DNA of 41,233 bases from an uncultured Candidatus Peregrinibacteria bacterium. GTDB taxonomy: Bacteria; Patescibacteriota; Gracilibacteria; UBA1369. Of this stretch, positions 14,975-32,804 are shown one piece after another. A program made the translations under genes and the position numbers. The DNA lies in assembly GCA_937858825.1 (NCBI GenBank), contig CALMAI010000013.1, forward strand, positions 1 through 41,233. Direction: 5' to 3'. Positions within the stretch are counted from its first letter, which is position 1; every line of letters begins with the position of its first letter. The notes under the pieces were generated by a model. The model was not told the origin of the DNA. It saw only the letters and a list, made by a program, of their open reading frames with translations, and did no database searches.

Positions 14975-15685
14975 ATGAAAACACGAATAGCACCACTCTT
15001 TGCAATCCTTTTCAGCCTCACAGTATTCCTGGCCGGTTGCGAAACCGAGGCTCCAGCTACAACCAACCTTGCCACCGGAACCACCCAAACCGACTCATAC
15101 TCTAACACCCAAGAAACCATGGAAGAACCAACCACCACTTCACAGCTCACAGAAGCGGCGCAAGCTCAGCTCGCGGCACCACAGGCCGGGGACAAAATCG
15201 CCGTCATCGAGACCGAAAAAGGAACTATCAAATTCAAACTCTTCACTGACCAGGTTCCAGAAATGAGCAAGAATTTCGAAGAACTCGCCAACGCCGGCAA
15301 CTATAATGGCACTCCTTTTCACCGTGTTATGCAGGACTTCATGATCCAAACCGGAGACTTTACCAACAAGAACGGAACCGGAGGATACAGCTACAAGGGT
15401 GAAGGGACCGTCCTTCCAGATGAGATTGTTCCGGAACTCAAGCACCTTTACGGTACCGTTTCTATGGCTAACCGTGGCCCAAACACCAACGGAAGCCAGT
15501 TTTTCATCGTCACCAACGAAAATGGAACAGCCTTCCTGGACGGGAGTTACACCGTTTTCGGACAGGTTTTTGAAGGAATGGACGTAGCAGAAGCCATTGA
15601 AGCGCTTGAAATCCCAGGAACAGAAAGACCAAGCGAAACCGTAACCATGACCGACGTAAAAGTCATGGACTACCAACCAGAGTAA
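14975..15685 (+). CDS. Lipoprotein cyclophilin-type peptidyl-prolyl isomerase
   Basis: This 236-residue exported enzyme speeds cis-trans isomerisation of prolyl bonds, probably helping exported proteins fold. A signal peptide ends in the lipobox FLAGC, so it is lipid-anchored. A Thr-rich linker follows to about residue 65, then a complete bacterial cyclophilin domain with TPFHRVMQDFMIQTGD (catalytic Arg), ANRGPNTNGSQFFIV and VFGQVFEGMDV. The stop overlaps the ATG of the short acylphosphatase gene (TAATG). Given the large set of exported beta-rich proteins later in the window, an extracytoplasmic foldase is in keeping, but no direct link is shown. Confidence 0.95.
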   Translation: MKTRIAPLFAILFSLTVFLAGCETEAPATTNLATGTTQTDSYSNTQETMEEPTTTSQLTEAAQAQLAAPQAGDKIAVIETEKGTIKFKLFTDQVPEMSKNFEELANAGNYNGTPFHRVMQDFMIQTGDFTNKNGTGGYSYKGEGTVLPDEIVPELKHLYGTVSMANRGPNTNGSQFFIVTNENGTAFLDGSYTVFGQVFEGMDVAEAIEALEIPGTERPSETVTMTDVKVMDYQPE

Positions 15686-19696: not shown

Positions 19697-19705
19697 TGGT
19701 AAAAT
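19697..19705 (+). promoter_or_regulatory. Extended -10 promoter of the first surface-protein gene
   Basis: TGGTAAAAT is an extended -10 element. The transcript would start near 19712, leaving about five bases to ATG 19717 or 17 bases to the in-frame ATG 19729. Confidence 0.55.
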
Positions 19706-19716
19706 AAAAAGATAGT

Positions 19717-21171
19717 ATGTACATCCAAATGATAAAATCCTTACAAAAAGGTATTAGTACCGCCTTCATTGTAATGTTGAGTGTTATGGGCCTTGGTAGT
19801 GCGTCTTTAGCAGCGCCCCCTCCAGGAACAACCACGGCTCCTTATACTGTTTCCTACAGCGCCCGACTCACCGACGCCGTGGGAACGCCAATCACAACAG
19901 CACAAACCGTCCGCTTTAGTCTTTGGACCGATTCAGATTTCGATGCGGGGGACCTTTTGGGAACAGGCGCAATCGACCCAGGCGCGGCTGGCTATGCCGG
20001 TTGGGTCGAAGAGCACACAGTCACTCCAGACACCAATGGACTCTTCCACGTAGATCTTGGAACAATCACAACTCTCCCAAATGTAACATCTTCAACACAC
20101 GTTTATCTTCAGGTGGATGTAAAACCGGATGCTTCCCCAATCACAGACTACGAAGTTATTGATCCAACAGGATCAACAGCAGACACCACCGATCGACACA
20201 TCCTCAATTCCGCTTTTTACGCTATTAATGCCGATACTGTCGACAATGCCGATGTCGGAACCGGACCTGGGAACCTGGTAACACTCGATGGAGCCGGGCT
20301 TTTCGATGTAGCCTACATCCCAGGCGGGACCAATGCCGACTCATTTGTTATCGATGCCGATGATTCCGTCGCGGCCGGAACAATCCCTCTTATATTTGGA
20401 ACAACTCTTGCTCAAGTCCTTGAATACGACATTGGCAACTCATACTTCAATTTTTCAGACGACGTGAACATTACGGGAGACCTTACTGTTACCGGCAATG
20501 CGAACTTCTCTGGATCCAGTGAATTCCATATGCGTGAAGTTGCAGACGAAGCCGCAGCTGACTGTACCACCGTCAACGAACTCGTCCTCGATACCACAGA
20601 AAACCGCATTTACGTCTGTACCGCCACAGGCTCACCAGGAACATGGGCAGCAACGGGTGGAGCAGGAGGAACGTATGCCCAGAGCATTGTGATAGAACCG
20701 GAATACGAAGATGGAGTTATTGTTGCGGACGGATCCGACAATAAAGGAAAAATCGAATCCTTCTTTATAGATACGGATGGTGACCCGGGAAACGACAACT
20801 TTAATTACTACCGTTGGACTACCAGACAATCATCCCTGCAGGACATTGATCTTGTTGTCCGCGTTGACCTCCCGGACGGATTTACCGGATTCCAGGCAAC
20901 ACCAGTAGAGCTGACCTATCGAACAGCCGATGGCGTAGTAACAACCAACCACATAGATGTAGAAATAGAGGATACAGCCGGAACAGCAATTCCACTGGTG
21001 GGAGGAACAGACCTCACATCAGCTGGAGCCTTTACAACAAGCGGAATAACCTTTGGAGGAGTCCCAACATTTACAGCCGGTGAACAGATAACTATAAAGC
21101 TACGACCACACACAACCAGCTCCGGATATACCGATGTTGGACGCATCATTATAAATTATGTCGGAAATTAA
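19717..21171 (+). CDS. Exported modular surface protein 1
   Basis: This 484-residue secreted protein has a signal peptide ending near SASLA|APPP. Residues about 40-160 form a beta-rich domain (VSYSARLTDAVGTPITTAQTVRFSLW) that recurs in the protein at 25666. A copy of the surface module follows near 215-265 (LIFGTTLAQVLEY and FNFSDDVNITGDLTV). A two-Cys module comes next (DCTTVNELVLDTTENRIYVC, ending GTWAA). The C-terminal 160 residues (PEYEDGVIVADGSDNKGKIE, YYRWTTRQSSLQDIDL) are shared with the next protein. No wall-anchor motif is seen. The in-frame ATG at 19729 is equally plausible. Function is unknown; texture suggests a fibre or S-layer-associated structural protein. Confidence 0.88.
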   Translation: MYIQMIKSLQKGISTAFIVMLSVMGLGSASLAAPPPGTTTAPYTVSYSARLTDAVGTPITTAQTVRFSLWTDSDFDAGDLLGTGAIDPGAAGYAGWVEEHTVTPDTNGLFHVDLGTITTLPNVTSSTHVYLQVDVKPDASPITDYEVIDPTGSTADTTDRHILNSAFYAINADTVDNADVGTGPGNLVTLDGAGLFDVAYIPGGTNADSFVIDADDSVAAGTIPLIFGTTLAQVLEYDIGNSYFNFSDDVNITGDLTVTGNANFSGSSEFHMREVADEAAADCTTVNELVLDTTENRIYVCTATGSPGTWAATGGAGGTYAQSIVIEPEYEDGVIVADGSDNKGKIESFFIDTDGDPGNDNFNYYRWTTRQSSLQDIDLVVRVDLPDGFTGFQATPVELTYRTADGVVTTNHIDVEIEDTAGTAIPLVGGTDLTSAGAFTTSGITFGGVPTFTAGEQITIKLRPHTTSSGYTDVGRIIINYVGN

Positions 21172-21200
21172 ATTGAAATACTGGAATAATGACAAAAGTG

Positions 21201-21209
21201 TGGTATAAT
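21201..21209 (+). promoter_or_regulatory. Extended -10 promoter of surface protein 2
   Basis: TGGTATAAT, a perfect extended -10 element, lies 36 bases before the ATG at 21245. No good -35 hexamer is visible at 17 bases. Confidence 0.65.
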
Positions 21210-21244
21210 ATACTGAATATATAAAAATAATCTCACCCTTTACT

Positions 21245-22984
21245 ATGCAAAACAAAAAGCATACATGGCTCAAAAAGGCCATTAATACCCTTGTTCTCAC
21301 CATGATGGTTACGAGCAGCGCAACAGCGCAGGCAGCCATCCTTTTCCAGGATGATAACTTTCACGACATCGCATCTGATGCAATCCTCATTGATTTCGAT
21401 GGAGCCGGTGCCAACGACACCGCTATCCAGTTCGGAAATGATGCTGTTACAACAGAGAATGGAACCATTAACTGGAATATCACGACCAACACCTTTGAAT
21501 TCGACAACAGTGTTGATATCACCGGAGACCTTAGTGCCAACGGAGATGTCGACTTTTCTGCAGCAACACAAACCCGACTTCGTGAAGATACAGATCCAAA
21601 CACCAACGCGGATTGTGCCGTTATAGGTGAGTTGATTGTTGACACAACTGATGAAGAACTCCAAATCTGTACAACACCAGGAAGTCCCGGTGTATGGGCA
21701 CCAGTAGTAGCTTCCTCTACAGACGCCGACACACTCGATGGACTCGATTCATTGCAGTTCCTCCGAAGTGATACATCAGACAACTTCACATCTGGAACGC
21801 TTACAACAGATGCTGGAACAACTCTCGACGTTAACGGAGTTGCAGACTTCAGCGGAGCCACTCGATTCGCGATGGCCGCAGGAGCAGCAGATCCAGGAAC
21901 TTGTACAGAAGGAGACCTCTTCTACAACACAACAACAAATGAACTTCGTGTTTGTACCGCAACAGACACATGGTCGACAGGAGGCCCGCAAGATTTTGAA
22001 GATGTTTATGGAGCAGATGCAGACAACACCCTTACAACTTCAAACGGAGATTTCAGCATTGCAACAGGAACCGGTGAGTTCGACGTAACCTCAACAGGAC
22101 TCCTTGATTTCAACGCTGACAGCTTTGATATCGACCTCACTGGAGGATTCTTCGTAAATGCTGGAGCTGCATCAAACATTACAACTTCTGCTGGAGCTCT
22201 CACTCTTGAAGCGACAACAGATGACGTGAACATCACAGCAGGAGACGACATCGTCTTCGACGACGCACAGCTCACTGCCCCGGTAACCCTTACCGAAGCC
22301 GACACAGGCATCGACGCAACTTTCGGAACAACCGGTATTATTGACGCCCTCAACTCCCTCACATCAACTGCTACAGGGGAAGGTGCTTCAAACGTTGGTA
22401 TCGAAGATGCTGGAGGATACTACACCGGAGCAGACGTAGAGGCTGCCCTTCAGGAGCTTGGAGCTGTTTCTGGATCAAACGCGCCAAACAACGAAGTTCT
22501 AACTTTCTATCCAGAATATCCAGATGCAACCATCTTCCAGGATGGAAGTAACAATAAAGGAAAACTTGAAGCTCTCTATGATGATGCCAACAGCGAACAC
22601 TACTATTCATGGACAACCAAGCAAAACTCGGCGCAAGACATCGATATTCGATTCCGATTCCCTCTCCCGGCAGACTTCCTTGATGTGAACGATTTCACAT
22701 ATCGATATAGAACCGGTTCAACAACCGAAGCTGACAATGATGTGGAAGTAACAGTTGTAAACGTCACAGACGCTGCAACATGTGGATCAGACACAACCAA
22801 TGGATCAGCCAACGTATGGGCAACAGGAACCATTGCAGAAGCAACGCTCGAAGCGGGATGTACAGGTGGTTCAGCACTTGATGCGGGCGATATCATTGAG
22901 ATCGCAGTGAAATTGATCGACGCAACAAACGCTGCCGCAACATTCGCGGACATTGGATTCCTTTCACTCGGATACGACAACTAG
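21245..22984 (+). CDS. Exported modular surface protein 2
   Basis: This 579-residue secreted protein has a signal peptide (to about residue 25, ATAQA|AILFQ). The mature protein opens with AILFQDDNFHDIASDAILIDF, an N-terminus shared with the proteins at 23127 and 27096. The surface module AIQFG ... INWNITTNTFEFDNSVDITGDL follows, then two two-Cys modules (DCAVIGELIVDTTDEELQIC ending GVWAP, and TCTEGDLFYNTTTNELRVC ending DTWST), a repetitive Asp/Thr/Ala-rich middle, and the C-terminal domain (YPEYPDATIFQDGSNNKGKLE, YYSWTTKQNSAQDIDI) also found in surface protein 1. It has its own promoter and a strong terminator behind it. Likely a structural surface or fibre protein; no catalytic motif is visible. 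Confidence 0.9.
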   Translation: MQNKKHTWLKKAINTLVLTMMVTSSATAQAAILFQDDNFHDIASDAILIDFDGAGANDTAIQFGNDAVTTENGTINWNITTNTFEFDNSVDITGDLSANGDVDFSAATQTRLREDTDPNTNADCAVIGELIVDTTDEELQICTTPGSPGVWAPVVASSTDADTLDGLDSLQFLRSDTSDNFTSGTLTTDAGTTLDVNGVADFSGATRFAMAAGAADPGTCTEGDLFYNTTTNELRVCTATDTWSTGGPQDFEDVYGADADNTLTTSNGDFSIATGTGEFDVTSTGLLDFNADSFDIDLTGGFFVNAGAASNITTSAGALTLEATTDDVNITAGDDIVFDDAQLTAPVTLTEADTGIDATFGTTGIIDALNSLTSTATGEGASNVGIEDAGGYYTGADVEAALQELGAVSGSNAPNNEVLTFYPEYPDATIFQDGSNNKGKLEALYDDANSEHYYSWTTKQNSAQDIDIRFRFPLPADFLDVNDFTYRYRTGSTTEADNDVEVTVVNVTDAATCGSDTTNGSANVWATGTIAEATLEAGCTGGSALDAGDIIEIAVKLIDATNAAATFADIGFLSLGYDN

Positions 22985-23005
22985 GAATCATAACAGAGTT
23001 AAAGA

Positions 23006-23033
23006 AAAGCCTCCTTCAAAAGGGGGCTTTTTT
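23006..23033 (+). terminator. Intrinsic terminator after surface protein 2
   Basis: AAAGCCTCCTT and AAGGGGGCTTT pair (one G-U-type mismatch) around a three-base loop and end in a run of six T. It lies 22 bases after the stop codon. Confidence 0.88.
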
Positions 23034-23065
23034 GTTGCAGAACAAAGAGTGACAATTTTATGACG

Positions 23066-23098
23066 AAGGCCCCATCCTCATAGAGGGGAAGCCTTTTT
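23066..23098 (+). terminator. Second terminator-like hairpin
   Basis: AAGGCCCC (23066-23073) and GGGG-AA-GCCTT (23085-23095) pair with a two-base bulge, followed by T residues. It abuts the promoter of the next gene, so the two genes are doubly insulated. Confidence 0.65.
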
Positions 23099-23099
23099 A

Positions 23100-23108
23100 T
23101 GGTATAAT
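23100..23108 (+). promoter_or_regulatory. Extended -10 promoter of surface protein 3
   Basis: TGGTATAAT lies 19 bases before the ATG at 23127, so the leader would be only about 12 bases. Confidence 0.65.
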
Positions 23109-23126
23109 GTAAAGACATATTGCCAT

Positions 23127-25661
23127 ATGAAGAAAACTTTTTTTCGACAACTTATTTTCTTTTCACTCCTGCTTTGCCTTTTTGGTGGACAGCAGAAAGC
23201 TGACGCGCGAATCCTTTTTCAGGATGATGATTTCAGTGATGTTGAGTCAGATGGGATTATTATCGATGCGATTGGTGATGCGGGCGGAGATATTATCATT
23301 CAATTTGGGAGCCTCATTGGTGAAACGCTCAGCTGGAGCGCCGGCAATAACCGGTTTGAATTGAGCGATGATCTGGACCTCACCAATAACCAGCTCACCA
23401 CTGCACGCCTGGAAAATGTCACATCTCTGCCAGGTGGAGGCGCAGGGCTTGGCGCAGGAGGAATTGGACGAGTAGTAGAACTCACGGTAACAGACAGCAC
23501 GGCGCCAGGATGTACGGTTTCACCCAACTGTACGCCCGGTACATATACATGGAATGGAACGAGCTGGAATGTCCTCAGTGGCGGAAGTCTGAGCAGTGGC
23601 GGATTCGCACAAACAGTAACCGTTGCAAAAAGTGGAGGAGACTTTACGTCGATTAAAGCAGCAGTGGACTCAATCACGGATGCGACAGCTCTCAAACGCT
23701 ACGTCGTCCAGGTTTATCCAGGAATTTATCCCGAAGCCCCAATTACGGTTCCGGACTATGTGAGTATCAAAGGTTTGGGAAATCTGAGTAACATCATCGT
23801 TGTTGCGGCTGTCCCAACAGGAACTCTGCTTGACGCCGGATCGAACACACTTATCGAAAACATTTCTTTAACAGGAGCCTCTGGCGCTGGTGGTATTTGC
23901 GGACGGGCCGATGGAGTGACAGCATTTGATTTTGTTCAGTTAGCCGATTGCGAAACAGGGATTTTGGCTACAGGAAGTTCAGCATCTGTCCGCGTATTAA
24001 ATGTTGCCGCCCAGACCGGAACCTTCACCGACATTGTAAAGTATGAAGGAGGAGCAACAGGAGGAATGAGTCAGTATGCCGTTACTGGTGCAACCGCAGA
24101 TAACGCGCTGGTTGTGAGCGGAAGTGGAACACAAATCGCAATCGCCAACGCGGCCATAAAAGCACCACTCGTCACCAACGGAATTTTTGTAAACGACAGT
24201 GCCAATGTTGAAATTGGAAATGTAACAGTGCAGTTCACAGGCAACGGGCTTCGCATTGGTCCAACAGGATCAAGTGTCGTCAACGGATCCGGAGGAGTTA
24301 TAACCAACAACCAAACCTACGACATCTTTTCTGAATCAACAACAAGCAGCATCTACTATTCAGGTGTCGTTGCCAATAAAAACATGTTCAACATCCCTGC
24401 GGCCATGACCAATGTCATCACATTTAACGACAACACTATTGATGACGAAGCTCTGAACGTCCTTGGTGAGCTCAATGTGGGAATCCCTGAAGAAGGACAA
24501 GAGTCGCTCTTCGGTGAAGGTGACAGTTATACCGATGGGATGCTTGTGTATGCCTATAACGGCAGCACTTATTCAGATGTAACAACTGCGGCACAAAGTG
24601 CAACCGGCTCAACATTCAGCTATCCGGGAACCGGTGTTAATAACGCGCTCTACATCTCAAGCGATCGTCAGGATAGCCTTGGAAACTATGTGAAATTTGG
24701 AGGATATCGATACCTCACAGCTGGAACAGCAGCCAGCGGAGGGGCTATTGTCCATGAATACTGGAATGGATCATCATGGACACCATTCAATGTTATGTGC
24801 CTCCACTCAACGCTCCTTTATCGCTACGATAACTCATGCCACATTCGAGCAAACAGCAATGAATACGCACTCTTCGACAACAACATGAAGTCAAACTGGA
24901 CCCTCAGCGATCCTCCTTCAACCGGAACAAATCGCTACTGGATCCGCATACGGATCACATCCTCCCTCAGCACGGCTCCCCTGTTCGAACAGTTCAAAAT
25001 CAACCCAAATTCCACCCAGATTAATAGTGCCGGTACTTTTACATTCCTTGGAGATTCCCGTTACCGGAAAACGTTTATAACCGGGCCAGAAATGCTCTTT
25101 TATGCGCAGGGATCAAACAGCCCCGACAACACATCATTTACCGTGGGGACATTCTTCTCATCGTTTACCATGGAAAGGGCGCAGTCAGCATTCACGGGAA
25201 ATTCGTACCAGATAGAAGAAACAACGGGGTCTATTGCCTTACCAAGAGGTATCGATACATCAAACCCGGTTACGGTCCGGATTTATTGGAAAAAATCGAA
25301 CAACAACGGAGGGAACGTACAGTGGCATCTGGATTACACACTCGCTGCCGCGCGAAACGTAGAAGCCGTAGATGGATCAAATATCCCAACAGCACCACGC
25401 GCCGCTGGAGAGGACATTGACTCAGATGTATCAATCACAACTATTGAAACAGTCCCAACAGGAAGCGGCATATCTGATGACGAAGTAATTCTTTCGGAAT
25501 TCACAACTCCAATAGACATCAATGGCTACTATGAAGGGGATCCCCTTTATATTCGTCTCTATCGCGATGCCGCCGACAGTGACGATACATATACATCTGA
25601 CGCAGTTATGGTCGGATTTGAAATGAGCGGTGTCTTCTGGACCCTTGGTGAAAAACTCTAA
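23127..25661 (+). CDS. Exported surface protein 3 with right-handed beta-helix
   Basis: This 844-residue secreted protein has a signal peptide (ending near ADA|RILFQ). The mature N-terminus RILFQDDDFSDVESDGIIID and the module IIIQFGSLIGETLSWSAGNNRFELSDDLDL match its paralogues; a two-Cys stretch (CTVSPNCTPGTYTWNG) follows. From about residue 165 comes a pectin-lyase-like parallel beta-helix (VTVAKSGGDFTSIKAAVDSI and VQVYPGIYPEAPITVPDYVSIKG), resembling pectinesterase-type N-termini, lasting to about 430. The C-terminal 400 residues are beta-rich (YRYLTAG, EYWNGSSWTPFN, RYWIRIRITS) and resemble carbohydrate- or fibre-tip-like domains, but I cannot name the family. Possible role: glycan binding or a structural spike. 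No catalytic residues can be assigned. The next gene follows after four bases. Confidence 0.88.
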   Translation: MKKTFFRQLIFFSLLLCLFGGQQKADARILFQDDDFSDVESDGIIIDAIGDAGGDIIIQFGSLIGETLSWSAGNNRFELSDDLDLTNNQLTTARLENVTSLPGGGAGLGAGGIGRVVELTVTDSTAPGCTVSPNCTPGTYTWNGTSWNVLSGGSLSSGGFAQTVTVAKSGGDFTSIKAAVDSITDATALKRYVVQVYPGIYPEAPITVPDYVSIKGLGNLSNIIVVAAVPTGTLLDAGSNTLIENISLTGASGAGGICGRADGVTAFDFVQLADCETGILATGSSASVRVLNVAAQTGTFTDIVKYEGGATGGMSQYAVTGATADNALVVSGSGTQIAIANAAIKAPLVTNGIFVNDSANVEIGNVTVQFTGNGLRIGPTGSSVVNGSGGVITNNQTYDIFSESTTSSIYYSGVVANKNMFNIPAAMTNVITFNDNTIDDEALNVLGELNVGIPEEGQESLFGEGDSYTDGMLVYAYNGSTYSDVTTAAQSATGSTFSYPGTGVNNALYISSDRQDSLGNYVKFGGYRYLTAGTAASGGAIVHEYWNGSSWTPFNVMCLHSTLLYRYDNSCHIRANSNEYALFDNNMKSNWTLSDPPSTGTNRYWIRIRITSSLSTAPLFEQFKINPNSTQINSAGTFTFLGDSRYRKTFITGPEMLFYAQGSNSPDNTSFTVGTFFSSFTMERAQSAFTGNSYQIEETTGSIALPRGIDTSNPVTVRIYWKKSNNNGGNVQWHLDYTLAAARNVEAVDGSNIPTAPRAAGEDIDSDVSITTIETVPTGSGISDDEVILSEFTTPIDINGYYEGDPLYIRLYRDAADSDDTYTSDAVMVGFEMSGVFWTLGEKL

Positions 25662-25665
25662 AACT

Positions 25666-26964
25666 ATGAAAAATCTTTTCAAAACAACAATTTGTACGGT
25701 CTTCATAGTTTTGTTTGCAGTAACAGCAAACGCCGAAAGTTATATATCTTCGGTGTTTTTAATATTGGATGATGGAGGCCCGATAACCACGACTCAAACT
25801 ATCCGGTTAAGTCTTTGGGATGACGGTAGAATCGAAAGTGGAGACGTGAGTTCCGGTGTTATTAATACCGGTGCTGCCACTTATGGTGGATTCCAGGTTG
25901 AGCTAACACTCACGCCAGATTCAGTTGGACGATTACTCATACCATTTGGTGATATCGCCAGCTTCCCCGAACTCACACCAAACAATCAGTTTATGATGAT
26001 TGAGTACAAAGACGATGGTGATCCGGTAACATCATATGTTCTCTACAATGACACCTACATCAATGGAACAACGCTTGATCGTTTCCCATTGCTAGAAAAC
26101 GGAGTTTCAATATCTCAAGAGTTGTACACCAATAACGCAACAGACGCCGACACATTCACGCTCGACAAAGATAATAATGGGACAGATATTGCCATCCAGT
26201 TCGGGGAAACATTGGCAGAATCTATTACCTGGAGCTCCACCAACACCCGTTTCGAAATTTCTGACGATACACGGATTGAAGGGAACCTGGCAGTTGTAGG
26301 GCAGGGATTTATAGCCGATGACCATACCGCTGCTCTCAGTCCGGGAATTCTGAACCTTGGACGAAACGGCAGTAACTGGGAATCTTTGCAGTGGGACATT
26401 GCCTCAGGCCGATTCGACTTTTCAGATGACCTTAATGTCAATGGCGGTATTGAAGTGGCAAGCGATATCGACTTCAATCTCAATGAATCAATAGAACTGA
26501 GAGTTGAAAACCTTGCCTCAGCGCCAACCTGCGACGGAAGTTCAATTGGACGCGTCTATCAAAACACTACCGATGGAAACACCTATGCTTGTGATGGAAG
26601 CAGTTTCCAGATACTCAATAACGCTAACAGCACGCACTACCACAACGGATCTTTGGCAAACAACATTGTTACCGCAACAGTTACGAATGAGGCTACCGAT
26701 GGGGAAAACACAACATTGTATCTCACCGACGATGGAACAGTCAGTGGGAATCTCCTCTTTTCATCGGTCTATCATGTCTCAGCAGAAGCATCAGAGATCC
26801 AAACACTCGCAGAAGCTCCTGTCATGGCAGGCTATTCATACAATGCCGGGACTGGTCTGCTAACAATCAAATTCCTCGAAAGCGCGGGGATTCTCTTGGG
26901 AGGGCAGGGATTGGAAGCCGAAGAAGCATCGACCCCAATCACTATTTTCGTCATAGGAACGTAA
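25666..26964 (+). CDS. Exported modular surface protein 4
   Basis: This 432-residue secreted protein starts with a clear signal peptide (FKTTICTVFIVLFAVTANA|ES). Residues 25-135 form the same beta-rich domain as in surface protein 1 (LDDGGPITTTQTIRLSLWDDG). Two copies of the surface module follow: IAIQFGETLAESITWS with TRFEISDDTRIEGNL, and LNLGRNGSNWESLQWD with GRFDFSDDLNVNGGI. A two-Cys module (TCDGSSIGRVYQNTTDGN, YACDGSSFQIL) precedes a C-terminal domain of about 110 residues (TVTNEATDGENTTLYLTDDG). I chose ATG 25666, four bases after the preceding stop, because it gives a proper signal peptide; it is probably cotranscribed with surface protein 3. Confidence 0.87.
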   Translation: MKNLFKTTICTVFIVLFAVTANAESYISSVFLILDDGGPITTTQTIRLSLWDDGRIESGDVSSGVINTGAATYGGFQVELTLTPDSVGRLLIPFGDIASFPELTPNNQFMMIEYKDDGDPVTSYVLYNDTYINGTTLDRFPLLENGVSISQELYTNNATDADTFTLDKDNNGTDIAIQFGETLAESITWSSTNTRFEISDDTRIEGNLAVVGQGFIADDHTAALSPGILNLGRNGSNWESLQWDIASGRFDFSDDLNVNGGIEVASDIDFNLNESIELRVENLASAPTCDGSSIGRVYQNTTDGNTYACDGSSFQILNNANSTHYHNGSLANNIVTATVTNEATDGENTTLYLTDDGTVSGNLLFSSVYHVSAEASEIQTLAEAPVMAGYSYNAGTGLLTIKFLESAGILLGGQGLEAEEASTPITIFVIGT

Positions 26965-27023
26965 AAGACAACATAGAGCTACAATAGTCAACTCTAAATG
27001 GGTCTTTCATAGAACACTGAAAG

Positions 27024-27053
27024 CATTCTTTCGTGAAAAAGAATGAAATTTTT
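27024..27053 (+). terminator. Probable terminator after surface protein 4
   Basis: Perfect eight-base arms CATTCTTT (27024-27031) and AAAGAATG (27038-27045) flank a six-base loop, followed by AAA and five T. The stem is AT-rich, so efficiency is uncertain. Confidence 0.5.
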
Positions 27054-27061
27054 GATATAAT
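27053..27061 (+). promoter_or_regulatory. Extended -10 promoter of surface protein 5
   Basis: TGATATAAT gives a predicted start near 27068. A Shine-Dalgarno-like GGAGAGGG (27086-27093) precedes the ATG at 27096, unusual for this window. An eight-base direct repeat TCATGACA occurs at 27074 and 27094, the second over the start codon. Confidence 0.6.
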
Positions 27062-27095
27062 TTTATGATAAAATCATGACACTTTGGAGAGGGTC

Positions 27096-29816
27096 ATGAC
27101 AGTCATAAAAAGCAGCTTCAATAAAATGAAAAGAATAAACATACTAGCGACACTGGGAATAGCATGGCTGCTTTCAGCGGGAACATACTTCCATCAAACA
27201 AACGCTGCCATCCTTTTTCAGCAAGATTCGTTTGCAGATGTTGGATCAGAAGGGCTGGTCCTCGACTTTTTGGATCAGGCAACCGGAAACATCACCATCC
27301 AGTTTGGAAGTACACTGGGAGAGTTTATCCAATGGAATGCGACAGATCTGCGATTTGAAATAAGCGATGACATTGATCTCAACAGTAACCAAATTGTTGA
27401 AGCCCGTGTGGAAAATGTTACAGCCATGCCTGGAGGAGCTCTTGGGCTGGGAGTTGGTGGAACAGGACGAATCGTGCAGCTCACTGCTGTTGATTCTATC
27501 GCACCAGGATGTACAGGCCCAAACTGTCAGCCTGGAACCTATGCCTGGAGCGGAACCACGTGGATTGGATTGACCGGAACAACCAACGTTTCTAACGCTA
27601 CAAAGGTGGTAACCGTTGGGCCAGTTGGCCGTGACTACACCACCATTGCCGACGCAGCAACCTACCTCAATACTGTGTCAGCCGGAATCATGCTGGTAGA
27701 CCCTGGAACATTTTCCATAACAACAGCAATCGACCTGGAAAACATTGAAATCGTTGGAAAAGGAAACAACCTCACAACAATAGATATTTCAGGAGCAGGA
27801 AGCCTTCAAATCATTAACAGCGCTTTCAAAGACCTCACCATCGATGTCGACAGCGGCATTGCAGCTACAAGTGGCCTGGATGTGCAGCAAAACGGCTCAT
27901 ACGACAGCGCCATTAACTTTCAACGCGTAGATTTCGTTGTTGGAAGCGGAAAAGTAGCAATCGACAGCACTGCCGGAACGCCACCGGTCACAGACATCGA
28001 TTTTATCAACAGTACCCAAAGTGGCGGAGCAGGAAATCTCCTTCTGCCAGTCTCTTCATCCGGACTCCGCAACACCTCAACCATTCTGGTAGACGACCAA
28101 CTTTGGGTAAATCCACTCAGAATCGCTGACTGGGATGTCACCATTATTGGTGGAGGAAACGTTCTCACATCGGGAACGATTTCAACCGTTCCCGACAGAA
28201 CCATTTACGTATCGCCGGGAATGAACATTCAGGGCGCAATCGACAGCCTTGGATCAAGCGGAGGAACGATTAAACTCCTCATTGGGACCCACAGCATCAC
28301 CGCTCCGCTTATCATTACTTCAAACGACATTACGCTGGTTGGAGAAGGATCAGGAACAATCCTCTCCACTACATCAGGATCATGGACAGGAGGAACAGGC
28401 GAAAACAACGCCACCATTCAGGTTGGAGTGGCAAACGGAACAGCTCCGGTCAGCAACATCACCATCCAGAATTTTCAGATGGAGGTTGGAGCAAACACAC
28501 ACGGAATTTCTATCAATGGAGGATCGGAAAACAAAGTCATGGACATGGTCGTAACATCTACAGGAGCCAAAACATCAACGCATACAGCCATTGTCTTTAC
28601 CGATGGATCCGCAACCATTGGGGAACGATTCACGGCAACAAGAAACATCATCAACAACAGTGCCCCTGCCAACCGCTGGGTGGATGGAATCCATTTTGAC
28701 GGAAACGCTGATTTTGCCGGCCAGCTCTTCGGTTATGGAAATGGAATCCAGGACAGTATTATCTCCGAAAACATCGTTTCCGAAGCAGCAGAAACCTCAT
28801 ACGCGTTTTCACAGGTCTCTGCCTCTTCAGTCTTTTCAAACCGTGCCCGGAATCTGGCCTTTTCGCCAACAGCTTTTGGTATGTTCTTCAACGATTGTGC
28901 CGATGTGATAATCATTAATAATACTGTGGAAGGCGCGAACGCAACAGCAACAGGAATTTCACTATTCGACAATGTGGACAACACCAGCGTTATTGGGAAT
29001 GCTGTACGCGGAGGACCATCAAGTTTCAGCATCGGTATAGCGAATAATGCTGCAACAAACGCCGGAAATATTATTGCCGACAACCAGTTTTCAAGCGTCA
29101 CGACAACCATTGTGGATGCCGGAACCAACGCCAAACTGGAAACCAACCACGACAGAAAGGGGGGATCGCACGGAGGAACATTCGGGATTAACGCCGCCAC
29201 AAACCTCACCTTTATCAACGTTGATTCAACCGCTGGAGCCGCTATCTGGATGGCTGTTGACTATCGATTTGCCGTCTCCACTCCACCAGCAACCTGCAAC
29301 GCTTCATTCGCGGGACAAACATTTATGGACACCGACTCAGGAATCGTCTACGTCTGTGACACCAGCAACGGCCGCAACAAATGGCTTTCAACACAGGACA
29401 ACGTCATTTTTGGAGAACAGACCGGAAACTGCGGAGCCGGAGACAGTCCAGGCAATGAAGATGGGTGTGCCGTTGACTGGGGAAGTTCACTGGGGCCAGA
29501 CAATGCCAATGACGTCGGATTTTACATTCCTCATGACATCACTGTTACAGGGTTCGGATTTTCCGCCGATAACGACTCATGCTTCTTCGGCTCATTCGAT
29601 GTAGAAGTCTGGTCAACGGGAAGCAGCAGCGACGACAATAACTATAGTTTCGACACCAACATTGCTACCGGACTCACCGGACAAGCGCACAATGCCAATA
29701 ATCTCAATATTGATATAGACGGAGGGCAATACATTCTTTGGGGTATCGATAACAATTGTACCCAAACAATCGATGACTGGAATGTAGTTCTCTACTACCG
29801 AACTCACCACACATAA
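27096..29816 (+). CDS. Exported surface protein 5 with right-handed beta-helix
   Basis: This 906-residue secreted protein, the largest of the set, has a signal peptide ending near QTNA|AILFQ. The mature start AILFQQDSFADVGSEGLVLD and the module ITIQFGSTLGEFIQW ... LRFEISDDIDLNSNQIVEARVENVT match surface protein 3 closely. A beta-helix follows from about residue 165 to 710, in two blocks each opened by a pectate-lyase-like start (VVTVGPVGRDYTTIADAATYL and IYVSPGMNIQGAIDSLGSSGG), with Asn ladders (IIINNTVEGANATATGISLFDNVDNTSVIGN) as in NosD/CASH repeats. A two-Cys module (TCNASFAGQTFMDTDSGIVYVC) and a Cys-containing C-terminal beta domain end the protein. ATG 27096 is preferred to TTG 27084 because of the GGAG upstream. 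No enzyme motif is certain. Confidence 0.89.
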   Translation: MTVIKSSFNKMKRINILATLGIAWLLSAGTYFHQTNAAILFQQDSFADVGSEGLVLDFLDQATGNITIQFGSTLGEFIQWNATDLRFEISDDIDLNSNQIVEARVENVTAMPGGALGLGVGGTGRIVQLTAVDSIAPGCTGPNCQPGTYAWSGTTWIGLTGTTNVSNATKVVTVGPVGRDYTTIADAATYLNTVSAGIMLVDPGTFSITTAIDLENIEIVGKGNNLTTIDISGAGSLQIINSAFKDLTIDVDSGIAATSGLDVQQNGSYDSAINFQRVDFVVGSGKVAIDSTAGTPPVTDIDFINSTQSGGAGNLLLPVSSSGLRNTSTILVDDQLWVNPLRIADWDVTIIGGGNVLTSGTISTVPDRTIYVSPGMNIQGAIDSLGSSGGTIKLLIGTHSITAPLIITSNDITLVGEGSGTILSTTSGSWTGGTGENNATIQVGVANGTAPVSNITIQNFQMEVGANTHGISINGGSENKVMDMVVTSTGAKTSTHTAIVFTDGSATIGERFTATRNIINNSAPANRWVDGIHFDGNADFAGQLFGYGNGIQDSIISENIVSEAAETSYAFSQVSASSVFSNRARNLAFSPTAFGMFFNDCADVIIINNTVEGANATATGISLFDNVDNTSVIGNAVRGGPSSFSIGIANNAATNAGNIIADNQFSSVTTTIVDAGTNAKLETNHDRKGGSHGGTFGINAATNLTFINVDSTAGAAIWMAVDYRFAVSTPPATCNASFAGQTFMDTDSGIVYVCDTSNGRNKWLSTQDNVIFGEQTGNCGAGDSPGNEDGCAVDWGSSLGPDNANDVGFYIPHDITVTGFGFSADNDSCFFGSFDVEVWSTGSSSDDNNYSFDTNIATGLTGQAHNANNLNIDIDGGQYILWGIDNNCTQTIDDWNVVLYYRTHHT

Positions 29817-29864
29817 TCATCATGATGAAGAATCCGAATACTGGCTTTTTGAAACAGCATTGAG

Positions 29865-29870
29865 TATAAT
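29865..29870 (+). promoter_or_regulatory. Probable -10 element for the SLH gene pair
   Basis: A perfect TATAAT lies 35 bases before ATG 29906. The -35 is unclear. AAGGA at 29888-29892 is a distant Shine-Dalgarno candidate. Confidence 0.45.
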
Positions 29871-29905
29871 AGGTTATACGTTAGTGCAAGGAATAACTTT
29901 TTTAT

Positions 29906-30889
29906 ATGAGAAAAGCTATCAGTATTATCACCAGTGCTCTTTTTGCGGTGGGAACCATGGTTCCGGCTGCGTTAGCGTTTCCTGATGTACCAAAAACACA
30001 CGAAAACTACCTTGCTATCGAATTTTTAAACCAGTCAGGAGTTGTAAGCGGATACGAAGATGGCACATACAAGCCGAATCAGCTCGTGAACAGAGTGGAA
30101 GCTCTGAAGGTTATTTTAGAAGGGAACAACATAGAAATTTCCAGCGAATTTGGAGCAATTCCATTTTCTGATGTCCAGACAGGTGATTGGTTCACGCAAT
30201 ACGTTATGACCGCAAAAGGACTGGGTATTGTTGATGGAAATCCGGATGGAACCTTTGCTCCAGGCCGAGATGTCGCCAAGGCGGAATTTTTAAAGATGCT
30301 TTTAAATACCAATGGATTCAAAACCGAAAAATGGGAAGGCGCTCAAATTTTTGCTGATGTCCCAGCCGATCAATGGTACACCCCGTTCATGAACTACTCA
30401 GGTCAGGCAGGTCTTGTAACAAAAGACGCCAACAATAACCTCTATCCTGCTGCCGCACTCAATCGTGGAGAGGTTGCAGAAATTATGTACATGCTCAGCA
30501 TTATTCTAAGTGGAAACAACACACAATTCCTGATCACTCAGGCAGAAAAACAGATGGCACAGATCGATATCTACGTTGGTGACAACAATCCTCTCGCTGC
30601 CAAGAGAGCATCCGAGCTGGCCGTAGACATGACACAGCAGGCATACAAAAATCTACCGGAAGATAACGTTGTTCTTGGAGCAGCCAAGATTGCCCGGGCC
30701 TACGATTTTGTTATGAACGCCTATCTTTTCGCGATCCAGCAAAACTGGGCGGAAGTAGAAAACTGGTCCAACCAGGCTATTGCAAAATCCACCGAAGCCT
30801 GGGAAGTAAATGACGAACTCCAGCCAATCGCCAAACACATTAAAGATCGCGCTAACGAAATAATGGCGCAAATTCCAAGTGGCAGCTAG
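29906..30889 (+). CDS. SLH-domain protein with helical C-terminal half (A)
   Basis: This 327-residue exported protein has a signal peptide (ALFAVGTMVPAALA|FPDV) and then three S-layer-homology domains: FPDVPKTHENYLAIEFLNQSGVVSGY with DGTYKPNQLVNRVEA, FSDVQTGDWFTQYVMTAKGLGIVDG with DGTFAPGRDVAKAEF, and FADVPADQWYTPFMNYSGQAGLV with NRGEV. SLH domains bind secondary wall polymers and tether proteins to the cell surface. The remaining 130 residues look wholly alpha-helical, TPR-like in spacing (AKIARAYDFVMNAYLFAIQQNWAEVENW). The next gene has the same layout and starts 14 bases later, so the two are a tandem duplication in one transcript. Confidence 0.92.
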   Translation: MRKAISIITSALFAVGTMVPAALAFPDVPKTHENYLAIEFLNQSGVVSGYEDGTYKPNQLVNRVEALKVILEGNNIEISSEFGAIPFSDVQTGDWFTQYVMTAKGLGIVDGNPDGTFAPGRDVAKAEFLKMLLNTNGFKTEKWEGAQIFADVPADQWYTPFMNYSGQAGLVTKDANNNLYPAAALNRGEVAEIMYMLSIILSGNNTQFLITQAEKQMAQIDIYVGDNNPLAAKRASELAVDMTQQAYKNLPEDNVVLGAAKIARAYDFVMNAYLFAIQQNWAEVENWSNQAIAKSTEAWEVNDELQPIAKHIKDRANEIMAQIPSGS

Positions 30890-30903
30890 CTCAGGCTCAG
30901 TAA

Positions 30904-31911
30904 ATGAAACAAAAATTTTTGACCGCCATCATAGCGCTCGCAGTAGTGGTTGGAACAGGAGTTTCAGCCCCATTGCATCAGGTTGCACACGCTCAAACGT
31001 TCAGCGACGTTCCATCGACCAATCTGTACTACAGCTCTATAGAAGCCCTTGTAGCGAGCGGAGTTCTTCAGGGATACCCAGATGGAACATTTAAGCCGAA
31101 TCAGCCTGTAAACCGCGCAGAAGCTATTAAAATGGTCCTCACAGGTATCGGGGACAAGCCCTCCAATGGACTCTATAACACCGGATTCACAGACGTCCCA
31201 CTCGATGTCTGGTACGCCGGGTACGTTTTTGAAGGAGCACTCAAAGGAATCATCCACGGAAACCCGGACGGAACCTTTGCCGGAGCCAGAACCGTCAATA
31301 AAGCAGAGTTTCTGAAAATGACAGAGCAGGCATTCCAGGTGGATCTCTCTCCATACCAAAATATCACAGGAAATATTGCTGCCGATGTACCGGCGGGCAC
31401 ATGGTTCACGCCTTACGTAGGGTATGCTAAAGCGGTTGGATTAATCTACGCGACCGTAGAGGACACACTCTCCCCGGAAAAGCTTCTCACGCGTGGGGAA
31501 TGTGCTCAAATCCTCCACAAAATGATGTACGTAAAACAGGGGGGATATGTTCAGGAACGTCTCTCTATGGCCGAAGCGAGCATTATAGATGCTCTTTTAA
31601 AAGTCTACAGGAACGATATTGATGGAGCTGTCGCGCAGGCGGGTGTGGCACTGGAAAGAAGCGAAGAGGCACTCAACATCAACCCAGAATCAGAAACTGT
31701 CCAGGCAACACATCTACTGGCACAGGCATTTCAAAAACTCTTTCAGGCCTATAAAGCCGGAACCTTACAAAGTTACGCGCATGTCGTTCTTTATGTAAAC
31801 GAAGCCAAATCTTTAGCCGACCAGGCAGTTGAAGTGAGCAGTTCAGCACAATACTTTGCCACGCAGGTACATGAGCATGGAGATAGTCTTTTGAGCCAGG
31901 TGAAAATCTAA
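30904..31911 (+). CDS. SLH-domain protein with helical C-terminal half (B)
   Basis: This 335-residue exported protein is a diverged paralogue of the preceding gene. A signal peptide (ALAVVVGTGVSAPLHQVAHA) precedes three SLH domains: FSDVPSTNLYYSSIEALVASGVLQGY with DGTFKPNQPVNRAEA, FTDVPLDVWYAGYVFEGALKGIIHG with DGTFAGARTVNKAEF, and ADVPAGTWFTPYVGYAKAVGLI with TRGEC. A helical C-terminal region follows (MAEASIIDALLKVYRNDIDGAV, LLAQAFQKLFQAYKAG). It would be held non-covalently on the cell wall. The two proteins may form a base for the larger surface proteins encoded just upstream; that is inference from position only. Confidence 0.92.
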   Translation: MKQKFLTAIIALAVVVGTGVSAPLHQVAHAQTFSDVPSTNLYYSSIEALVASGVLQGYPDGTFKPNQPVNRAEAIKMVLTGIGDKPSNGLYNTGFTDVPLDVWYAGYVFEGALKGIIHGNPDGTFAGARTVNKAEFLKMTEQAFQVDLSPYQNITGNIAADVPAGTWFTPYVGYAKAVGLIYATVEDTLSPEKLLTRGECAQILHKMMYVKQGGYVQERLSMAEASIIDALLKVYRNDIDGAVAQAGVALERSEEALNINPESETVQATHLLAQAFQKLFQAYKAGTLQSYAHVVLYVNEAKSLADQAVEVSSSAQYFATQVHEHGDSLLSQVKI

Positions 31912-31931
31912 AGCAGAAGAATACACTGCAA

Positions 31932-31960
31932 TTGGCCATATATAAAATATATGGTATAAT
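31932..31960 (+). promoter_or_regulatory. Promoter of the proline-rich anchored protein
   Basis: TTGGCC (31932-31937) and TATAAT (31955-31960) are 17 bases apart, and the -10 carries the TGG extension (31952-31954). ATG follows at 31998. Confidence 0.7.
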
Positions 31961-31997
31961 TTAGAGATATCCCTGAAGCCGAAAACAAAAACAAAAA

Positions 31998-32804
31998 ATG
32001 AAAACCAAGGCAGGAAAAAGAGCGCTCACAAGCCTATTCTTTGCGATTACAATAATTGCAGCCACTGCTGCTATGCCCTTTGGTGCATCAATAAGCCACG
32101 CAGCTATTGGAACAAGCACCAATTACATCATGGATTCAGCTGACATTGTGAACGATGGAGCTGTGGGAACAGGAACCTCTCCCAGCTACGGTATGACGGG
32201 CATAACCGGGGACAACTTTGATGGGGAGGGATCCAGTTCAAGTTATAGTGCATGTGCGGGATTGGTAGAAGAAACATTCGCAGACTGTATTGCACCCGTA
32301 CCGCCGCCATCCCCACCAGTCGGCGGCGGCGGAGGTGGCAGCGGCCGCCCTTATCCGGTTGATGGACCACCAGAAGAACCAGAAAAGCCGGAGGAGCCGG
32401 AAACTCCTGAAGAGCCGGAAGAACCGACTCTCCCACCTCCGGATCAACCAGCTCTCCCGGGAATCCCAGGAGCACCAGAGATGCCCCAGCCAGGAACACC
32501 CCAACCGGAAGTGCCCCAACCTGAGCCACAACCACAGCCGGGAGGGTCAGGCCCAATCGCTTATGTTCCATCAGTAGGACCATTCCCTCCAATTGTCGGC
32601 GAAGGTTTTGTATGGAGGGAGGATGTGTGGTGCGCTGACTATTTTTGTTTTGATAGAAGCACGGAGGAAAGACAAATACATGGAGCCGCCGTGTCAGAGG
32701 TGGCAGTAGCACCGCTATGGCCACTCATTATTTTGCTGATCTTGATCCTCTTTATGACAAAAGAGACCTTCTTCCAGAAAGAAAAACGTAAAAAGCGGCG
32801 ATAA
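31998..32804 (+). CDS. Exported proline-rich protein with C-terminal membrane anchor
   Basis: This 268-residue protein has a signal peptide (to about residue 35, ISHA|AIGT), a short domain (TNYIMDSADIVNDGAVGTG, SYGMTGITGD, SSSYSACAGLVEETFADC) resembling the 'SxNY' repeats I associate with CPR exported proteins, then a long linker of Gly (GGGGGGSGRP), Pro-Glu repeats (EEPEKPEEPETPEEPEEP) and Pro-Gln repeats. A Cys pair (WCADYFCF) lies near residue 212. The C-terminus is a hydrophobic helix (PLWPLIILLILILFM) followed by KEKRKKRR. This layout is that of a surface protein held by a C-terminal membrane anchor, but no LPxTG-like sortase motif or PEP-CTERM motif is present. Confidence 0.87.
   Translation: MKTKAGKRALTSLFFAITIIAATAAMPFGASISHAAIGTSTNYIMDSADIVNDGAVGTGTSPSYGMTGITGDNFDGEGSSSSYSACAGLVEETFADCIAPVPPPSPPVGGGGGGSGRPYPVDGPPEEPEKPEEPETPEEPEEPTLPPPDQPALPGIPGAPEMPQPGTPQPEVPQPEPQPQPGGSGPIAYVPSVGPFPPIVGEGFVWREDVWCADYFCFDRSTEERQIHGAAVSEVAVAPLWPLIILLILILFMTKETFFQKEKRKKRR

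Follow-up and report, generated by a model that had tools for sequence, protein, structure and literature searches.

In Bacillus and Paenibacillus, S-layer proteins are anchored through SLH domains to a pyruvylated secondary cell-wall polymer (CsaB), and the anchoring scaffoldins of cellulosomes are likewise SLH-bearing, wall-bound proteins. Published work on attachment in the Patescibacteria has dealt mainly with type IV pili and with loosely described giant proteins, and we know of no account of how most members of the phylum hold their partners. For the Peribacteria, the parts of the genomic report used here describe S-layer genes and large, often cysteine-rich extracellular proteins thought to aid attachment (PMC4736985). 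The locus analyzed below combines SLH-bearing proteins with several kinds of modular exported protein. The preliminary description knew of no described system with this composition; in the open literature, a scope that leaves most subscription papers and all preprints outside, we found none, only general statements on the surfaces of Peribacteria and Gracilibacteria.

The window, by which we mean the whole stretch of 41,233 nucleotides that was analyzed, is contig 13 of a 1.32-Mb Peregrinibacteria genome in 46 contigs (G000), and from 19717 to 32804 it carries eight plus-strand genes in unbroken succession, g1 to g8. They had been presented as consecutive genes for exported proteins, and this is borne out: all eight are open reading frames at the coordinates given below, each N-terminus combines a charged n-region with a hydrophobic core whose 12-residue mean hydropathy is 1.7-3.1, together with an AxA-like cleavage site, and all eight products are predicted to be exported via Sec-like signal peptides (calls of export signals, transmembrane segments and LPxTG motifs follow sequence rules, not SignalP). 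The proposed composition also holds, with the beta-helices ascribed to two of the proteins putative. Five products (g1-g5) are modular beta-rich paralogues, mutually related by BLASTP (g3/g5 E 5e-40, g1/g4 E 1e-24, g1/g2 E 2e-16); two (g6 and g7) are paralogues with three SLH domains each above the Pfam cut-off, SLH being the only domain above cut-offs in a Pfam scan of the eight proteins; and g8 is a proline-rich protein with a single C-terminal transmembrane segment followed by a basic tail, KRKKRR. By the same sequence rules g1-g7 have no transmembrane segment beyond the signal peptide, a C-terminal one occurs in g8 only, and the LPxTG sortase motif is absent from all eight proteins, which leaves g1-g5 with no visible anchor, as had been stated. 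Housekeeping genes, including those for IF-3 and a Na/H exchanger, make up the upstream flank, and downstream lies recR (identified by reading), which adjoins the locus in relatives too. A gene for an exported lipoprotein-like cyclophilin (PF00160) is found upstream of the locus at 14975-15685, and near the locus also in G001 and G011; its product might assist the folding of exported proteins.

Four domains were defined from alignments. NTD1 is shared by g1 and g4; MOD is a short module of the stalk that recurs throughout g1-g5; CTD forms the head at the C-terminus of g1 and g2; and SAH is a helical domain with which g6 and g7 end. In the genome, which contains 71 SLH domains over roughly 33 frames, CTD is confined to g1 and g2 and SAH to g6 and g7. 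All its matches to g5 (g2-g5) and all its matches to g1 (g1, g2 and g4) fall inside the locus together with its only two SAH domains, and the locus is therefore not a random run of exported proteins. The reading we favor, and to which we give about an even chance on the sequence evidence, is that of a wall-anchored surface-fiber cassette for attachment, in which SLH domains would hold the wall, SAH would dock two fiber proteins, here called A (g1) and B (g2), and g8 would act as a tether.

Inside the locus lies a conserved core of gene types, A, B, SLH-SAH (g6) and g8, which recur together in relatives. Two samples were used, one of 59 genomes (G000 and relatives) and one of 380 genomes from across the phylum. 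SAH is present in 18 of the 59 genomes and CTD in 16, the CTD genomes being a subset of the SAH genomes and all belonging to families f1 or f7 (Fisher p 1e-12, with kinship ignored). In the phylum sample CTD is found in 38 genomes from many families, mostly in single copy and, outside the class, often in very large proteins; SAH is found in 18, and the search of these 380 genomes returned none from outside the class. Over the two samples 27 genomes contain both domains, and in 24 of them the nearest copies lie less than 8 kb apart (77 bp to 7.5 kb, median about 1 kb). The remaining three have the two domains on separate contigs; the A gene of G008 is followed by an SLH gene that the contig end truncates, and in G406 SAH and A are on different contigs. 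This linkage spans at least four families (f1, f7, f17 and f18) of one class. Under a naive model the chance of such linkage is about 4% per genome; a per-genome probability has no meaning among kin, but the four families, each taken once, still come to about 4e-6 under that model.

The arrangement of the core varies. Several f1 genomes have the order A, B, SLH-SAH, g8, recR, co-directional in most of that family; in both f7 and f18 the order is g8-type, A, B, with SLH-SAH convergent in the former and divergent in the latter. Since orientation and order differ between families, the linkage has outlasted rearrangement, and its persistence across many related lineages suggests that the parts work together. 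Two genomes (G160 and G347) have SAH with no A or B gene nearby, and in G414 SAH adjoins a 2097-aa NTD1/MOD protein. Conservation of the gene neighborhood, which had been proposed as a check, holds across families for the types of g1, g2, g6 and g8 and not for g3 and g4, with g5 optional. The idea of an assembled surface structure with a base and projecting parts fares similarly: linkage, together with the shared reading frames described below, favors it for the core and not for all eight proteins.

Protein A (g1, 19717-21171, plus strand) consists of a signal peptide, NTD1 at residues 37-213, MOD at 204-268 and the CTD head at 309-483, and protein B (g2, 21245-22984, plus strand) of a signal peptide, MOD modules and a CTD head at 409-577. 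In a tree of CTD sequences the A heads and B heads of f7 and f18 occupy separate branches (support 96/98 and 95/89), and within f1 the two are again apart (88/89 and 99/96); the row G188_7786, labelled B in this tree, comes from an A gene that is divided between two frames and represents its C-terminal part. This separation indicates that the pair is old and that both members were kept, and by this phylogeny A and B are distinct subunits derived from an old duplication. The A gene is broken in two relatives, by an in-frame TAG in G007 (L065:1609-3048) and by the division into two frames in G188 (L124:7786-11283). Stalk modules of relatives match bactofilin, one of them above the Pfam cut-off (E 6e-9), and one stalk module matches the FapA solenoid at E 0.03; the window's own proteins gave no Pfam match to bactofilin. 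The CTD profile had no convincing match in the PDB, and an AlphaFold model of g1 built from few aligned sequences reached a pLDDT of 38.6, too low for use.

The core wall anchor g6 (29906-30889, plus strand) has a signal peptide, three SLH domains at residues 24-192 and SAH at 196-325, and its paralogue g7 (30904-31911, plus strand, 33% identical) has the same three SLH domains and SAH. The SLH matches are strong (E 3e-30 in g6 and 2e-27 in g7, with totals of 104 and 95 bits, the cut-off being 20.8). The g6 and g7 copies separate in the SAH tree, which implies that the second copy, g7, is of older origin and was kept in a few f1 genomes. Compared with the PDB, the SAH profile gave weak matches to designed helical and TPR chains (8fit, E 1e-4; CTPR, E 1e-3; designed TPR chains in general, E 1e-3 to 1e-2), and Pfam TPR families had no match in g6 or g7 at E 0.1; SAH thus appears to be helical and weakly TPR-like. 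Binding of g6 and g7 to the wall would be expected from what is known of the SLH family and from a gene of the polysaccharide pyruvyl transferase family on contig 26 (PF04230, E 7e-48), a match to the family only, with CsaB activity putative. This gene is present also in members of the order that have no SAH, and it therefore supports SLH anchoring in general and not the cassette.

These features are open to a second reading, that the core is an envelope-building or S-layer module tying together membrane, wall and surface layer, with only g3-g5 adhesin-like. Across families the A and B heads and SAH persist as conserved genes in one or two copies, the heads are conserved well enough to fit a structural role as readily as that of an adhesin, g8 reaches outward from the membrane, and the stalk is bactofilin-like, a fold that polymerizes in other bacteria. 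However, most sampled families of the same order lack the core, as does the remainder of the phylum sample, so it answers no general envelope need, and CTD occurs within single large proteins of other classes. We consider an envelope module possible, if unlikely, and prefer a surface-fiber cassette.

The tether of such a cassette would be g8 (31998-32804, plus strand), which comprises a signal peptide, a domain of SxxYxL repeats at residues 34-97, a proline-rich linker, a transmembrane segment from residue 229 and the KRKKRR tail. Proteins of this type share a signal peptide, SxxYxL repeats, a low-complexity linker and a C-terminal transmembrane segment, and most have the basic tail. Between families the similarity lies in the short repeat domain (hhalign probability 6-70%), which lends weak support to homology of the g8-type domains. 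The g8-type gene overlaps the start of A in f7 and in G146 and G188, and in three genera (G218, G282 and G316) one open reading frame holds both a g8-type region and A. In two of these (G282, L126:5632-8634; G316, L127:6378-9272) the start of the frame is HTH-like, of transposase type, and membrane segments come after it; this may be an artifact of an upstream start or a membrane-bound regulator. No g8-type gene was recognized beside A/B in G002, G005, G007, G009 or G291. Cysteines are conserved in the g8-type proteins of f1, and in G011 a gene for a DsbA-like thioredoxin (L049:826-1635) overlaps the end of the g8-type gene. Near the A gene of G406 is an exported protein (L138:4534-5796) with SxxYxL repeats, cysteine-rich repeats and, by eye, a dockerin-like C-terminus.

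The NCBIfam model NF058579, 'CPR-type pilus protein PamT', on which we found nothing in the open literature, matches g8 at E 0.07 with 12.6 bits against a cut-off of 240. An identification of g8 as PamT was rejected on this score, and no relative reaches the 240-bit cut-off either. The N-domains of g8-type proteins in relatives do match PamT at about residues 5-79, below the cut-off (E 1e-6 in G006), which lends something to the proposal that the fibers and anchors are accessories of type IV pili, modifying or capping them for host contact. Gene order also speaks for it: in G002 and G007, B comes after T2SSE-T2SSF in the pilus operon, and A with an SLH gene lies between that operon and a pilin gene with a giant protein, the same arrangement being inferred for G008 from two contig ends (L054, L065, L051 and L142 for the three). 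This link concerns three genera and is not general. The pilus loci of G000 lie elsewhere, on contigs 19 and 23, as they do in other genomes examined, g8 itself scores far below the PamT cut-off, and a pilin-like N-terminus is found in none of the eight proteins; we regard a role as pilus accessory as improbable. On contig 19 of G000, at about 35-52 kb (L105), a giant protein of more than 5000 aa that carries SLH-like domains comes immediately after a type IV pilus operon, and a pilus operon (T2SSE, T2SSF and, in most, pilin) with such a giant protein next to it is seen also in L107, L109, L110 and L113, the arrangement recurring in two families.

The other fiber genes behave differently from the core of the proposed cassette. 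The lineage-specific modular protein g3 (23127-25661, plus strand), for which a beta-helix was suspected from sequence alone, has an N-terminus that shares 43% identity with g5 across 219 aa; g4 (25666-26964, plus strand, 25666 being the better start) has NTD1 and two MOD modules without CTD; and g5 (27084-29816, plus strand, its start more likely at 27126 than at 27084) has an N-terminal MOD, a conserved body at residues 177-697 and a head, head A, at 734-909. The g5 body may fold as a beta-helix; the g5-family profile weakly matches the pectin-lyase-like chain 7chu (E 0.026), while simple periodicity tests for coils in g3 and g5 gave no decisive signal and an AlphaFold model of g5 from few aligned sequences has a pLDDT of 29.2, likewise too low for use. 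Among g5-type proteins the body is conserved and the C-terminal head differs between species, with at least three kinds among orthologues. Head A, whose profile had no convincing PDB match, is carried by those of G000, G011, G018 and G041; a C1q/BclA-like head by those of G006, G047 and G057, one matching BclA_C at E 3e-4; and a third type by those of G004 and G008, as well as by a short protein of G003.

Genes of the g5 type are found in both f1 and f7 and are optional, lying near the core in G000, G001, G004, G011 and G041 and away from it in G002 and G018. Near each of those in f7 is a different SLH protein with an RlpA-like C-terminus (62-81% conserved; L056:7461-8459, L057:12749-13726, L058:4210-5358 and L062:12754-13728). 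g3 and g4 stand outside any conserved set, being lineage-specific and gained or lost among relatives. Identity between G000 and its sister genome is 98-100% for g1, g2, g6 and g7, 94-96% for g3 and g5, 87% for g8 and 75% for g4 (25666-26964 against L047:10445-11743), the most divergent gene of the locus.

Five of the genes, g2, g3, g5, g6 and g8, have a perfect TATAAT hexamer 24 to 70 nt upstream, and most of these hexamers show an extended TG. On the plus strand, these consensus matches comprise the extended -10-like site TGGTATAAT at 21204-21209 before g2 and the sites at 23103 (g3), 27056 (g5), 29865 (g6) and 31955 (g8); a further consensus match, TGGTAAAAT, lies at 19700, 17 nt upstream of g1. 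Five perfect hexamers in eight upstream regions of 120 nt (960 nt) compare with about 0.15 expected from the 6.3 per strand in the window. The intergenic gaps between g3 and g4 and between g6 and g7 are 4 and 14 nt, and the g2-g3 interval contains a terminator-like hairpin followed by a T tract (23011-23032, plus strand), the total of such hairpins across the region being not above chance. This layout suggests about six transcription units. A single-operon reading of the eight genes was set aside: six genes are preceded by promoter-like consensus matches. As g3 and g4 are, in addition, restricted to the lineage, the locus as a whole is not a single conserved operon.

Separate promoter-like sites before most genes, the paralogy of g1-g5 and of g6 and g7, and the coming and going of g3 and g4 are what one would see in an island of independent surface proteins, clustered by local duplication and shared export needs and forming no assembly. 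Yet local duplication accounts for A beside B only; the unrelated SLH-SAH and g8-type genes are linked to A/B across families despite changes of order, and g8-type and A sequences occur in shared frames, which makes such an island quite doubtful. A captured remnant of a phage tail or contractile injection system, suggested by the tail-fiber-like modular architecture, a sub-threshold Mtd_N match in g2 (E 0.02) and matches of some g5 relatives to phrog_8309, a PHROG of unknown function, has a negligible chance given Sec-like signals on all eight proteins, no genes recognized in the vicinity for sheath, tube, baseplate or capsid, no PHROG match at 0.01 among the window's proteins, no match to the g5 head among 50,697 phage records and no relative of g5 in IMG/VR.

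In the wall-anchored cassette that we favor, the SLH triplets of g6 and g7 would grip wall polysaccharide, and the helical, TPR-like SAH would offer a docking platform for the fiber proteins. A and B, probably acting as a pair, would extend outward as beta-solenoid stalks with related heads at their tips, while g8 would cross the wall via its proline-rich linker and tie the assembly to the membrane. g3, g4 and g5 would then be optional fibers added by the lineage, and swapped heads could alter the targets to which the cell adheres. Attachment to another cell or surface is the most likely function; the organism, a tiny bacterium, is probably host-dependent, an assumption made from its clade. 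We also entertain, as a speculative and rather unlikely extension, that this is an apparatus dedicated to host contact in the Peregrinibacteria/Gracilibacteria class, in which SLH-SAH, A, B and g8 form a stoichiometric complex and interchangeable accessory fibers set partner specificity. The gene types that would supply anchor, fiber pair and tether are named targets for localization, pull-down and complex prediction, and SAH is a marker by which the cassette can be traced in genomes of uncultured organisms. Should specificity reside in the g5-type heads, their swaps could help to predict partners.

Compared with the S-layer proteins of Bacillus and Paenibacillus, g6 and g7 likewise carry three SLH domains after a signal peptide, in a genome with a PF04230 member, but here SLH is fused to a private helical domain and the displayed proteins are encoded by separate genes. 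The cellulosome scaffoldins offer a parallel, an SLH protein bound to the wall whose further domain could serve for docking of other secreted proteins; unlike them, the eight proteins have no Pfam match to cohesin or dockerin, and SAH is helical and weakly TPR-like. The Peribacteria report concerns the same broad lineage and predicted extracellular proteins of an attachment type, whereas the parts of it used here describe neither a four-gene cassette nor a pairing of SLH proteins with fibers (PMC4736985). Phage tail fibers and BclA-type proteins resemble the g5 type in joining a stalk to exchangeable C-terminal heads, one of which matches BclA_C, although g1-g8 are predicted Sec-exported cellular proteins with no phage genes, and trimerization of the g5-type heads is only putative. 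SLH anchoring itself is already known; the proposed four-gene cassette would be a variant of SLH-anchored surface display.
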